This document shows, piece by piece, positions 27,613 to 33,521 of a stretch of DNA of 64,000 nucleotides (within the stretch, counting starts at the first letter, position 1; every line of letters starts with the position of its first letter). The position numbers were made by a program, and so were the translations under genes. The DNA comes from Desulfovibrionaceae bacterium (GTDB lineage: Bacteria > Desulfobacterota > Desulfovibrionia > Desulfovibrionales > Desulfovibrionaceae), in assembly GCA_028689675.1 (NCBI GenBank), contig JAQVCS010000007.1, positions 62,001-126,000 of the forward strand, given 5' to 3'. Under the pieces are notes generated by a model, which did not search any database, had not been told where the DNA came from, and worked only from the letters and a program-made list of their open reading frames with translations.

Positions 27613-27924
27613 CTAATCTTCTTCTCCGATATAAATATCCGCCGTCTGATTGTGACCTTCAGCATGTTGATATTCCCCAAATAACGCCGCAACGAATTGT
27701 CGGATAAATTTATATTCTCTCATTAACAGCAATAAATCCAAGGCTGTCATACCAGTATTTTTATAGAACCAGTTTCGAACTCGTTCTGTTGGAACAACAA
27801 TATCACTTGCAACTTGTTTAGAAGTAAGCTCTTGCTCACGTATTGCTTGGACGATATTTCCTGTAAGAAGTTTATTTCCCAGATTATTTTTGTGGCAAAT
27901 TTGCCACATATTACTTCTGGACAT
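27613..27924 (-). CDS. Small HTH protein, probable regulator of the recombinase module
   Basis: 103 residues. The middle part TSKQVASDIVVPTERVRNWFYKNTG reads as a helix-turn-helix, and a second conserved-looking stretch is DLLLLMREYKFIRQFVAALFG. The family is not recognised. Start at 27924 is supported by AAGGAG 6 bases upstream. It is divergent from the serine recombinase gene and shares a short control region with it. An 18-bp perfect palindrome lies inside its own codons 6-11, so it could repress itself or the recombinase. The function is inferred from position. Confidence 0.7.
   Translation of the reverse strand: MSRSNMWQICHKNNLGNKLLTGNIVQAIREQELTSKQVASDIVVPTERVRNWFYKNTGMTALDLLLLMREYKFIRQFVAALFGEYQHAEGHNQTADIYIGEED
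27891..27908. promoter_or_regulatory. 18-bp perfect palindrome, candidate operator
   Basis: TGTGGCAAATTTGCCACA reads the same on both strands. It lies inside the HTH gene just after its start and about 85 bases before the recombinase start. Possible users are the HTH protein or one of the two ParB-like proteins. Confidence 0.5.
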
Positions 27925-27991
27925 GGCTTTCTCCTTAGTTGAAATTATGAGCCTAGGCTATTTTCAGTCTCAGCAAGGAGATACATACCTC

Positions 27992-29644
27992 ATGCGGCAG
28001 CCGGGAATACCATATACAAGAGAAGAAATAAAAAAACTACACTTGAGAAGTGCAATTTACATTCGCATGTCCACAGAGTTGCAGGTGGAATCCCCAGAAA
28101 ACCAAGAGCGTGAAATCCGTGCCTATGCGGAGAAATATGGAATAGAGATCGTCAAAATTTACGCCGATCTTGGTGTAAGCGGCATGACAGCAGAAAAACG
28201 GGGGCAGTTTCAGACCCTACTTGATGATGTGGACTCTGGTCGCAATAGCTTTAGTATTGTTCTGTACCTAGATGACAGCCGCTGGGGGCGGTTTGTGGAT
28301 AGCCGAGACGCAGACTATTACCGCATGAGGCTGGAACGCAATGGTGTTATTTGTCAGGCTTGCGATAAACCTCTGACCATGACCACGACTATTGCCGACC
28401 GAATCATGACCATGCTTAGTGATGAGAACGCCAGCGACTATTGCCGCCAACTTTCACAGAAAGTTTTTGTCGGACAAAGAAATCTCATCCTCAAGGGCTA
28501 CCGCCAAGGTGGCTCCGCAGGCTTTGGGCTTCGTCGTATGCTGTTGACTGAAACAGGTGAACCCAAGCAAGAGCTGTGCATAGGGCAACGCAAAAGTCTT
28601 CAGACAGAGCGGGTTGTATTGGTTCCTGGCCCGCAATTGGAATGCGACAAGGTACTCTGGATGTATGATCAGCTTCTTGTCGGAAAAAAAGAAAACGAAA
28701 TTGCTGACATCCTCAATGCCGAGGGCTGGAAAACAGACTTTGGAAGACCTTGGACAAGGGGAACAGTGCGCGAGGTGCTTACCAATGAAAAATATATTGG
28801 CAACAATCTGTTCAACCGATGTTCTGGCAAACTGAAAAGCAAACAACGGAAAAATCCCGAACACGAGTGGGTAAGAAAGGAAAGAGCGTTCCAGCCTGTG
28901 GTGGATGCAGAGCGCTTTTTTGCTGCTCAAAAAATTATCCAAGAGCGACATCGAAAAATATCCAATGAGGAGTTACTTGAACGCCTCTCGAGCCTTCAGC
29001 GTCAAAGCGAACGCCTTTCCGCCATGATTATCGATGAGTCGGAAGATATGCCGCCAAGCAGCCTGTATAGGCATCGCTTTGGTGGTCTGCTTCGCGCCTA
29101 CCACCTGATTGGCTACATCTCGGAGCGGGATTACCGCTATGTGGAAATCAACCAACGGCTCCGAGCCATGCACAGTAATATTGTGCTACAAACAGTTGCG
29201 GATATTGAGAAACTTTGCGGAAGAAAAATCTTTGTTGATCCAGTGACAAATCTGTTGGAGCTGAATTATCACCTGTTCATATCTATTGTAATTAGTCGGT
29301 GCTTTATCACTCCTTCTGGACTCAGGCGATGGAAAATCCGCTTTGACACAGGCCTCCATCCAGACATCACCGTTGCCGTGCGCATGAATGCGGCAAACGA
29401 CACTATTCATGATTATTACATTCTTCCTGCTCTGGAGTTCGGACAGGCCGATCTGAAATTGCAGGATGAAAACACAGACCTTCTGGACAGCTTCCGCGCA
29501 GACAGCTTGGAATATCTTCTGGGCATGAGCGTCAACATCGGCCTCGACAAGGCGGTATACTATGACAAGCTGCGAAATTACTCTTGTACCAGTGGAAGAA
29601 GTTTACATCCTGAACCCACGGGTGCGCAACCAAGTAATTGCTGA
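27992..29644 (+). CDS. Large serine recombinase
   Basis: 550 residues. The catalytic resolvase domain begins AIYIRMSTELQ with the nucleophilic Ser, then SPENQEREIRAYAEKYG, DLGVSGM and YLDDSRWGRF. A recombinase domain (NEIADILNAEGWKTDFGRPWTRGTVREVL, then NEKYIGNNLFN) and a coiled segment follow. ATG 27992 has AAGGAG about 11 bases upstream, a little far. Upstream in-frame ATGs at 27890 and 27947 lack a ribosome site. The 3' end overlaps the ParB-like gene by 83 bases, so the three genes form one transcription unit. It probably integrates, excises or inverts DNA; no core att site could be identified. Confidence 0.88.
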   Translation: MRQPGIPYTREEIKKLHLRSAIYIRMSTELQVESPENQEREIRAYAEKYGIEIVKIYADLGVSGMTAEKRGQFQTLLDDVDSGRNSFSIVLYLDDSRWGRFVDSRDADYYRMRLERNGVICQACDKPLTMTTTIADRIMTMLSDENASDYCRQLSQKVFVGQRNLILKGYRQGGSAGFGLRRMLLTETGEPKQELCIGQRKSLQTERVVLVPGPQLECDKVLWMYDQLLVGKKENEIADILNAEGWKTDFGRPWTRGTVREVLTNEKYIGNNLFNRCSGKLKSKQRKNPEHEWVRKERAFQPVVDAERFFAAQKIIQERHRKISNEELLERLSSLQRQSERLSAMIIDESEDMPPSSLYRHRFGGLLRAYHLIGYISERDYRYVEINQRLRAMHSNIVLQTVADIEKLCGRKIFVDPVTNLLELNYHLFISIVISRCFITPSGLRRWKIRFDTGLHPDITVAVRMNAANDTIHDYYILPALEFGQADLKLQDENTDLLDSFRADSLEYLLGMSVNIGLDKAVYYDKLRNYSCTSGRSLHPEPTGAQPSNC

Positions 29645-30434
29645 AGAAATCTGGCGCAATATTCGCAATGTTGGTCTGAAGCGGCCAATTACCGTTACCC
29701 TGAGCACCGACCCGAAAACAGGAAAGAAGTACGATCTTGTTTGTGGTCAAGGTCGCTTGGAAGCCTTTATGGATGCTGGTGAAACAGAAATTCCCGCTAT
29801 CATCATCGATACTGACAAGGAACACGCCCATATTATGAGCTTGGTTGAAAATATTGCCCGCCGCAATAATAACCCCATGGAACTGCTGCACGGCATACGG
29901 CATCTGAAAACCCAAGGCTATGGCGACTCGGAAATAGCGGAAAAAACAGGATTGGGTCGTGACTGGATTCGTGGAATCATCAAGCTTCTAAATAAAGGGG
30001 AAGAACGACTGGTCAGCGCGGTAGAAAAAGGCCGTATCCCTTTATATATTGCGCTAAAAATTGCAACAGAAGACGAGGCGGCCATACAGGTTGCCTTGAC
30101 AGAAGCTTATGAATCAGGCCAGCTCGTTGGGGGCAGGCTCATCTCCGTGCAGAAGCTGCTTGATCGACGTAATCACTTAGGCAAAAAATTGTCCACGACG
30201 TTAAAACCAAGAAAAGCTCCTTCGGTTGGCGAATTAAACGCCTTGTATGCCACCGACATAAAGAGAAAAAAACGCCTTATGGCCAAGGCTGAACGGCTCA
30301 GACAGATTCTTACATACACTTCCGCCGCCCTGAACAAGCTATTGCGTGATGAACATTTTACAAACCAACTCAAGGCGGAAGGGATGAATGACCTCCCACA
30401 GCAACTGGCGGATATGCTGCGGGAGGTGCGCTAA
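29562..30434 (+). CDS. ParB-like protein associated with serine recombinase
   Basis: 290 residues. The ParB N-terminal domain is recognisable: VPVEEVYILNPRVRN, VCGQGRLEAF at the position of ParB box II (GERR in canonical ParB), and SLVENIARRNNNPMELLHGI. An HTH follows (DSEIAEKTGLGRDWIRGIIKLL). The rest is basic and helical (KRKKRLMAKAERLRQI). It begins inside the recombinase gene and ends one base before the next ATG. No ParA is encoded here, so ordinary plasmid partition is unlikely. A DNA-binding accessory role to the recombinase is plausible. Confidence 0.8.
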   Translation: MTSCEITLVPVEEVYILNPRVRNQVIAEEIWRNIRNVGLKRPITVTLSTDPKTGKKYDLVCGQGRLEAFMDAGETEIPAIIIDTDKEHAHIMSLVENIARRNNNPMELLHGIRHLKTQGYGDSEIAEKTGLGRDWIRGIIKLLNKGEERLVSAVEKGRIPLYIALKIATEDEAAIQVALTEAYESGQLVGGRLISVQKLLDRRNHLGKKLSTTLKPRKAPSVGELNALYATDIKRKKRLMAKAERLRQILTYTSAALNKLLRDEHFTNQLKAEGMNDLPQQLADMLREVR

Positions 30435-30435
30435 C

Positions 30436-31329
30436 ATGGGGATAGGTATTAAACAAGGGTTTGAAAAAAGATTGGTAGAACTCGCCATTACTGACTTGCG
30501 GCTCACAAAAAGCTTGAATGTCAACGTCAAACAAGGAAGAAAATATTCGCAAATTATTTCATCGCTTCGCGAGGTGGGGCTAATTGAACCCCCAGTGGTG
30601 GCTCTTTGTAACAACAAAAAAGAATATCTCCTTCTCGATGGACATCTCAGAATTATGGCGCTTAAAGAACTGGGCGAAAGGCGGGTGAACTGCCTGGTGT
30701 CTGTAGACGATGAAGGCTATACCTACAACAAATTCATCAACCGACTTTCCGCTGTTCAGGAACATAAAATGATCGTTAAAGCCCTTAAAGCCGGCGTATC
30801 TGAAACCAAGCTCGCCGCCGCCCTGAATCTTGATATAAAGTCACTCCGCAGCAAAAAAAGCATGTTGTGCGGGGTATGCGAAGAAGCAGTTAACTTGCTA
30901 AAAGACAAGATCATGTCGGAATCGGTTTTCCGAGTTCTTAAAAAAATGAAGCCCTTACGGCAAATTAGTGCGGCTCGAAGTATGAATGCTCAAAACCGCT
31001 ATAGTTATAAATATGCACAAAATCTGCTTGTGGCCACCCCAGCAGAACAGCTACTTGATGCCACAAAAAGCAAAAGAATGTCACAGGCCGAACTGGCTAA
31101 ACATATTCGACTGGAAGAAGAAAATTTGTCTCTAACCGAAGATATCTGCTCCCTGCATAACTCTTATGGAGTGGATATGCTGCACCTTAGCTCCCTTCAG
31201 TCATACCTGAAAAAAATGATGAGTAACGAGAAGGTGGCAGGCTACCTTTCACGGCACCATCCAGAAATTCATGAAAAATTTCTTGAAATTATCGGAATAG
31301 ACTTTTTAAAAATGAGCAACATCAGCTAA
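30436..31329 (+). CDS. RepB-like ParB-domain protein, second of a pair
   Basis: 297 residues. A degenerate ParB N-domain contains YSQIISSLREVGLIEPPVV and YLLLDGHLRIMALKELG (GxxR box). The remainder, with KSKRMSQAELAKHIRLEEENL, matches the style of the plasmid partition RepB C-terminal family that often sits beside recombinase genes. GGAGGT lies 8 bases before ATG 30436, and the previous gene stops two bases earlier. It is probably the partner of the ParB-like protein upstream. No plasmid replication gene is visible. Confidence 0.75.
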   Translation: MGIGIKQGFEKRLVELAITDLRLTKSLNVNVKQGRKYSQIISSLREVGLIEPPVVALCNNKKEYLLLDGHLRIMALKELGERRVNCLVSVDDEGYTYNKFINRLSAVQEHKMIVKALKAGVSETKLAAALNLDIKSLRSKKSMLCGVCEEAVNLLKDKIMSESVFRVLKKMKPLRQISAARSMNAQNRYSYKYAQNLLVATPAEQLLDATKSKRMSQAELAKHIRLEEENLSLTEDICSLHNSYGVDMLHLSSLQSYLKKMMSNEKVAGYLSRHHPEIHEKFLEIIGIDFLKMSNIS

Positions 31330-31623: not shown

Positions 31624-32298
31624 TTATTGTTCTTCTGTGGTAAAAGTGTACAGTGTCGCAAGAAATTGTATGCGATTTTCAAGTAATATATTATCACATT
31701 GTATGCTTACCAAGGCAGCTACAGTGCCACTACTTTTGTCATAGATCAGTTTATTTATGTCATTTCGCTGTGCAAGCCATGTGCGCTGTGCTTGGCGCAA
31801 TGTTTTTTCAAGGGGTGTACCCTTAGTGCTTGCCATAATTTCTTTATAGGCTCTGTTCAGTACGGTATCAAGATTCTTATTATATTCTGACAATGCTGTT
31901 GCCATACTTGCAGTGCTTTCTGCTGTTTCTAATTGCTTATTAAGCTGTGCCTCATAGTATTTTACCTGCATTGCTACAGGCAAGGGGCTTTTTTCCATTG
32001 TAGAGGATGAAGAAAAATCCCCTGCAATGGAAAGTATTTTTTCACCATTGACTTGTGCTTGAAACACTGCGCTCTTTACAAATTTATCTTTATTTTGCAG
32101 AAAAAAGCCATGGGCTGGCGTTGCTTCATAAATAATATATTCATGGCATTCTGCGCTTTCAGGCACACAGGCATAGAGGTGCACATCATCATTGGCAATG
32201 AAATACTCTTGCAATGCCAATCCTACTTGTTCACTCTTGGCAAAAACTGGTGACACACTCATAAGCAAAACTAAGAGTAAGAGGAGATGCTTCATCAT
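31624..32298 (-). CDS. Exported LprI/DUF1311-like protein
   Basis: 224 residues with a signal peptide (HLLLLLVLLMSVSPVFA, cleavage about residue 21). The C-terminal third carries the LprI-type pattern: LDTVLNRAYKEIMAS, then TLRQAQRTWLAQRNDINKLI and a final Cys-containing helix. LprI proteins of mycobacteria inhibit lysozyme; in proteobacteria this domain is common in periplasmic proteins of unknown role. The central region is not recognised and has two close cysteines (ACVPESAEC). It is a single gene. Confidence 0.7.
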   Translation of the reverse strand: MMKHLLLLLVLLMSVSPVFAKSEQVGLALQEYFIANDDVHLYACVPESAECHEYIIYEATPAHGFFLQNKDKFVKSAVFQAQVNGEKILSIAGDFSSSSTMEKSPLPVAMQVKYYEAQLNKQLETAESTASMATALSEYNKNLDTVLNRAYKEIMASTKGTPLEKTLRQAQRTWLAQRNDINKLIYDKSSGTVAALVSIQCDNILLENRIQFLATLYTFTTEEQ

Positions 32299-32405: not shown

Positions 32406-33461
32406 TCACACTAAATGCAATGCTTTGCCATCGGCACGAGGGGGCAGCACTTCCCCAATGACAGCAGCGCAGTCACCACTGGCGGCAAGCATTTCGCGGG
32501 CTTGGTCAAGCTTGCGTGCTGGCACGGCCAGCACAAGGCCGCCCGAAGTTTGTACATCAAAAACAAGGCTTTCCATCTCTGGGCTCACAGTGCTTGCAAC
32601 CGAGCATGAAGAAGCCCAGTGCTGGCGGTTGCTGTGGCTGCTGGCTGGGATAAGCCCATTGCGAGCATAGGGCAGTGCCGCGTCAAACAGCGGCAGGCTG
32701 GCGCTCTCAATACGCACGCATTTGTGCGAAGCCAAAGCCATTTCCAGCAAATGCCCACCCAGCCCAAAACCAGTAATATCCGTAGCCGCGCGCAAGCCAA
32801 GGGCGCGGATGACCGCTGCCCCGCCAGCACTCAGCCTGCCGCACCAATGGCACAGCGCAGCTTCGCTTTGCTGCCAATCATCCCAACGTGCCTTTATGCC
32901 AGTGGAAAGAATGCCGCTGCCCAAGGGTTTGGTGAGCACAAGCACATCGCCCTCACGCAGGCCATCGTTGGTGGCTATGCACTGCGGGTCTATAAGGCCG
33001 CTCACGGCAAGACCATATTTAATGTCCCTGTCATCCACCGTGTGCCCGCCCACCAGCACCGCGCCAGCTTGGCTAAGGGTATCAAGCCCACCACGCAAAA
33101 TAGCTTGCAGCGTATCGGCCTGCTCTTCCACAAGACAGGCAGGAAAACAGGCAATATTCATGGCGCACCACGGCGTGCCCCCCACAGCGTAGACGTCTGA
33201 AAGGGCATTGGCCGCAGCAATGCGCCCAAATTCATAGGCATCATCCACAAGGGGCGCAAGAATATCCACTGTCTGCACAAGAGCCTTGCCATCGGGCATG
33301 GTTACCACGCAGGCATCTTCATTACGGGCGCGCCCTGCCAGCACACGGCTTTCAAGGGCAGCGGGGGCAGGCTTCAGCCCCGAAAGTATTTTCTCCAGAC
33401 CCGCTGGAGGCACTTTCGCCGCTCAGCCTGGGGCTTTGGCCAAAGAAAGCAAGGGTATCAT
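32406..33461 (-). CDS. selD: Selenide, water dikinase with in-frame UGA (selenocysteine)
   Basis: 351 residues if UGA is read as Sec. ATG 33461 has an excellent AAGGAG 7 bases upstream. The chain starts M-I-P-L-L-S-L-A-K-A-P-G-Sec-A-A-K-V, where Sec13 (codon at 33423-33425) takes the place of the catalytic Cys of SelD (AGCGCK in E. coli) and is followed by the expected Lys. Further motifs are VDILAPLVDDAYEFGRIAAANALSD, VGGHTVDD and TDITGFGLGGHLLEMA. It makes selenophosphate from selenide and ATP in the cytoplasm for Sec-tRNA synthesis. A SECIS-like hairpin directly follows the UGA. A start downstream of the UGA would remove the active site. selA/selB are not in this window. Confidence 0.93.
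33381..33425 (-). promoter_or_regulatory. Bacterial SECIS element of selD
   Basis: The RNA after UGA folds as an outer stem CGAAAGT (complement of 33412-33418) with ACTTTCG (33381-33387) and an inner stem CTCCAG/CTGGAG with loop CGGGT, which has the G-rich apical loop expected for SelB binding. Distance from the UGA and size agree with bacterial SECIS elements. Confidence 0.8.
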
Positions 33462-33521
33462 GCTGGTCTCCTTTATTGCTACATAAACACGCCATGCCAC
33501 AGCGTGCGGCATAGCTACTCA

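Follow-up and report, generated by a model that had tools for sequence, protein, structure and literature searches.

The selD gene of this bacterium raises the question of whether a UGA codon close to its start ends translation or encodes selenocysteine (Sec). The gene lies on the reverse strand of the window, that is, the whole stretch of 64,000 nucleotides that was analysed; the source genome assembly (26 contigs, 2.36 Mb) is 99.49% complete. A preliminary description of the sequence had proposed a selenoprotein. This is supported by features established computationally: the reading frame, the UGA in a cysteine column and its conservation, the hairpin with its conserved stem, and the complete Sec machinery encoded by the assembly. 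Almost certainly, the gene encodes the Sec-containing SelD of a Desulfovibrionaceae bacterium, with the UGA decoded as Sec through the hairpin and SelB.

The selD gene and its in-frame UGA codon

32406..33461, reverse strand: selD coding sequence, ATG start, 351 residues, Sec at codon 13, terminal TGA at 32408-32406; translated with TGA as Sec
33468..33472, reverse strand: Shine-Dalgarno box AGGAG, 6-nt spacer to the ATG at 33461-33459; found by sequence inspection
33423..33425, reverse strand: UGA codon for Sec, catalytic Cys position in the motif GUAAK, codon 13
32406..33413, reverse strand: shorter GTG-started ORF of the mechanical ORF list, 335 aa, without the active-site loop

The frame consists of the ATG, eleven further codons and the UGA, and is then free of stops up to the TGA at 32408-32406. 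The earlier claim of an ATG at 33461 with a good ribosome site and a frame running through the UGA into SelD was exact in its coordinates, with AGGAG 6 nt upstream. In the alignment of a relative (L018) with the window selD, the ATG column differs. In the profile search the product scores 313.9 bits against the equivalog TIGR00476 (curated cut-off 125 bits), the match covering residues 6-316; its Pfam domains are AIRS and AIRS_C.

Among solved structures, the product best matches the selenide, water dikinase 3u0o (E 8.7e-52), which we take to be SelD of Escherichia coli. Residue 13, encoded by the UGA, aligns with Cys17 of 3u0o, in agreement with the catalytic Cys position assigned to it beforehand, and K16 aligns with Lys20; the UGA codon also aligns with a Cys of 2yye. 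The Lys of the K16 column, in the N-terminal loop of SelD, is presumably an active-site residue. A passage of the 2026 review PMC13188914 gives Sec as the catalytic residue of this loop.

The relatives share the position of the UGA codon. It occurs at the same SelD codon in 83 of the 85 rows read (84 loci and the window, with two genes present twice), and the other two rows (L064, L065) have Cys. The motif in the SelD rows is G-[U/C]-[A/G/S]-[A/S]-K. An in-frame UGA thus stands where two genomes of the family and 3u0o have Cys, the pattern by which a selenoprotein is recognised. Compared with two genes of the same genus, L018 and L019, the 48 bases preceding the ATG site agree at 9 and 12 positions, the 33 bases of the 11 codons ahead of the UGA at 20 and 18, and the 114 bases following the UGA at 90 and 56, respectively. 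A codon-position test is unsuited to the stretch before the UGA, as 11 codons are too few.

Consensus scans gave no promoter sites (shuffle mean 1.1) and one terminator site (shuffle mean 1.9); since both counts are below the shuffle means, neither element is claimed. An inverted repeat of 11 pairs with a 3-nt loop lies at 33491-33515 on the reverse strand, about 30 nt ahead of the ATG. It may be a terminator-like or leader element; conservation here is low in L018 and L019 (the same 9 and 12 of 48 bases). Downstream of selD, the gene at 31624-32298 (reverse strand) encodes a domain of the lysozyme inhibitor LprI type (39.6 bits). It is adjoined by what looks like a mobile element at 27890-31329 on the forward strand, consisting of a large serine recombinase gene followed by two RepB/ParB-like partition genes.

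The hairpin downstream of the UGA codon

33381..33418, reverse strand: SECIS-like hairpin, lower stem 33418-33411 with 33388-33381; 45-nt fold
33393..33409, reverse strand: upper SECIS stem-loop, stem 33409-33404 with 33398-33393, loop CGGGU at 33403-33399

The hairpin has a lower stem of 8 bp and an upper stem of 6 bp, separated by an asymmetric internal loop, and is capped by the loop CGGGU; its energy is -14.4 kcal/mol (45 nt counted from the UGA). The two-part stem-loop with a G-rich loop of the preliminary description is present, but it does not begin immediately after the UGA: the stem starts after a gap of 4 nt and the loop lies at 19 nt. The rules for bacterial SECIS elements (bSECISearch) were coded by hand from the legend to Fig. 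2A of PMC13188914, which contains the bacterial consensus. The hairpin conforms to the coded rules, with a 5-nt loop, a 6-bp upper stem, a distance of 19 nt from the UGA and an energy below -7.5 kcal/mol; the loop has a G within its first two positions followed by another G.

The specificity of these rules is poor: of 1701 UGAs of the window, 353 pass, and 178 under a stricter loop rule. The folding energy is unexceptional: 432, 73, 53 and 250 of 1000 dinucleotide shuffles reach the same stability at lengths of 42, 45, 50 and 60 nt, respectively, the best z value being -1.7 and the outcome varying with the folded length. By energy (45 nt), the hairpin ranks 156th among 1704 UGAs of the window. 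No SECIS element was found in the window by Rfam at gathering thresholds, where four tRNAs were the only matches. Since the rules pass many other UGAs, the weight of the hairpin rests on conservation.

The hairpin was aligned in 73 UGA rows, after 10 of the 83 had been dropped as duplicate or near-identical (L024, L034-L038, L062, L063, L078, L091). L062 and L063 apparently duplicate L018 and L019, with identical rows, and further overlap among the surveyed genomes and loci is possible. The upper stem is formed by standard pairs in 96.8% of 438 cells; shifting one side by 1-3 columns lowers this share to 55.5% or less. In the shuffle control the mean is 95.9%, and the observed value was reached in 0 of 500 shuffles. 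Two-sided changes occur in 3 of the 438 cells, in two pairs; of 500 shuffles, one matches this number of pairs and none this number of cells. The pairing is thus only slightly above that of the shuffles and two-sided changes are few, which counts against the stem. RNAalifold yields the same upper stem without the outermost pair (17-33) and with an additional inner pair 23-27. The latter changes on both sides in 14 cases and is broken in 9 rows; in the window it would be C-U and is not formed. Covariation contributes little to the energy (-0.37 of -7.29 kcal/mol). Loop columns 23-24 contain G in all 73 rows, 71 of which have G in column 24. In individual folds, the register of the lower stem varies among relatives.

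Among 74 distinct 60-base UGA segments from relatives (the true row of L068 being displaced by a second, unrelated motif match at that locus), 8 failed the SECIS rules, and all of these have a single mismatched pair within the upper stem. The Cys-type gene L064 also passes. Conservation of the hairpin may be partly driven by the protein, as the region encodes a conserved peptide. Weak on energy alone but conserved in its upper stem, the hairpin is supported as a candidate SECIS element to which SelB may bind.

Selenocysteine machinery in the genome and the family

The preliminary description had named the absence of selB or tRNA-Sec as evidence against a selenoprotein; SelA, SelB and tRNA-Sec were all found. 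The genome contains one tRNA-Sec (88.3 bits, anticodon TCA, i.e. UCA), and the remaining ten matches to the tRNA-Sec model are all below the cut-off of 47 bits. SelA was found with 596.8 bits, SelU with 349.3 bits, and SelB with 340.8 bits in a 682-aa frame comprising GTP_EFTU, domain 2, the SelB beta-barrel and two SelB winged helices. Hence selA, selB, selC and selD are all in the source genome.

Three molybdopterin oxidoreductase genes (L104, L106, L107) each have one in-frame TGA in the context R-(L/V)-U-H-S. L104 is identified by profile as Fdh-alpha (753 bits), and by this motif L106 and L107 would be formate-dehydrogenase-like. An additional UGA context at L106, on the other strand and outside the molybdopterin match, was set aside as unrelated; the UGA of the gene itself was found separately. 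With three formate-dehydrogenase-like genes carrying an in-frame UGA, the genome probably encodes at least one further selenoprotein besides SelD.

The survey covered 149 genomes drawn from Desulfovibrionaceae. SelD was found above the cut-off in 130 of them, with an in-frame UGA in 128 and Cys in two, G008 and G110 (loci L064 and L065). The 128 comprise 126 genomes from the survey listing together with G017 and G112, whose best match is partial (via L101 and L100); the position of the UGA was read at the codon in 69, including the window, and inferred from the listing in the other 59. The 14 relatives with names are all labelled Desulfovibrionaceae or Desulfovibrio, and several are from goat, sheep and buffalo gut; by these labels the window most probably belongs to the same family.

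tRNA-Sec was found in 130 of the 149 genomes at E 3.3e-15 or better, a threshold set at a gap in the match listing. The Rfam cut-off would pass 137, and matches near 50 bits (e.g. in G083) are presumed to be other tRNAs. Among the 128 genomes with UGA-SelD, 125 have tRNA-Sec, compared with 5 of the 21 others; the Fisher p value, 1.4e-14, is too small because the surveyed genomes are related. The three UGA-SelD genomes without tRNA-Sec (G022, G134, G144) are 62-75% complete; in the profile search SelB was above the cut-off in G134 and was not found in G022 and G144.

The five tRNA-Sec genomes outside the UGA-SelD set are G110, with Cys-SelD, and G010, G014, G047 and G145, with no SelD above the cut-off. 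In G014 there is a partial SelD match, so selD may be truncated there at the edge of a contig. G110 (L065) has kept tRNA-Sec and SelB on the same contig as its Cys-containing SelD, possibly following a Sec-to-Cys change or a gene replacement. G010, G047 and G145 are 99-100% complete and contain tRNA-Sec and SelB with no SelD match above the cut-off; either selD lies in an assembly gap, or selenophosphate is made otherwise.

Alternative readings and proposed decoding

One could suppose that the UGA is a true stop or a sequencing error, and that the working protein begins at the GTG at 33413 without the active-site loop. The mechanical ORF list does start there, as the preliminary description had predicted in expecting the active site to be lost by ORF calling. 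However, the codons ahead of the UGA encode the conserved SelD loop, and it is the ATG that has a Shine-Dalgarno box, none being seen in the sequence ahead of the GTG. The residue aligned with Cys17 is lost in the GTG-started form, as the latter lacks the loop. As the UGA is found at the same codon in relatives from many separate assemblies, a sequencing error is untenable, and we regard this reading as a whole as extremely improbable. We give even less credence, close to none, to decoding of the UGA as an amino acid other than Sec, by a changed genetic code or general read-through. An open frame across the UGA does not by itself identify the inserted residue, and the terminal TGA of selD also passes the loose SECIS rules. 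But selD itself ends at that TGA, where the strict loop rule is failed and the downstream fold is weaker (-8.1 kcal/mol against -18.8 kcal/mol at the Sec UGA, 50 nt); moreover, relatives lacking the UGA have Cys in its column, and tRNA-Sec and SelB exist in the genome.

A more speculative reading makes the UGA a selenium-dependent switch. When selenium is short, translation would stop at codon 13 or restart at GTG 33413, giving a SelD-like protein without the active-site loop and perhaps with another role; the selenium pathway would then be bistable and inherited through the cytoplasm. We consider this very unlikely.

For the preferred reading, a Sec-containing SelD, the following scheme is drawn by analogy with the known pathway. 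SelB, together with GTP and Sec-tRNA-Sec, would bind the hairpin just 3' of the UGA and deliver Sec at codon 13. In the product, Sec and the nearby Lys of GUAAK would convert selenide and ATP into selenophosphate, which would be passed to SelA for the synthesis of Sec-tRNA-Sec and to SelU for 2-selenouridine in tRNA. As the selenophosphate made by Sec-SelD would be used for Sec-tRNA-Sec, synthesis of the enzyme would require its own product.

For annotation, this means that callers reading UGA only as a stop would drop the catalytic residue of a key selenium enzyme. The survey supplies family-wide counts of the co-occurrence of UGA-SelD and tRNA-Sec; existing knowledge of selenoproteins is unchanged.

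SelD of E. coli (3u0o) is homologous to the window SelD across query residues 5-347 and shares the column of the active-site motif. It has Cys17 where the window SelD has Sec, and therefore needs neither a UGA nor a SECIS element. From the bacterial SECIS consensus, as given in the figure legend of PMC13188914, the hairpin shows no departure in the coded rules, which are themselves loose. According to a passage of PMC12013277, SelD is a selenoprotein in many organisms, and in the set of PMC1794560, as described there, FdhA and SelD are the most widespread selenoproteins. Table 3 of the latter paper, published in 2006, includes SelD among the selenoproteins of Desulfovibrio vulgaris and D. desulfuricans, and in this sense the finding is ordinary. 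These proteins belong to the same enzyme family and bacterial group and likewise occur as selenoproteins beside FdhA; likened from the published listing, they show no substantial difference from the window SelD except the species. The Sec-containing SelD described here is the usual, already known form of the enzyme in Desulfovibrionaceae.
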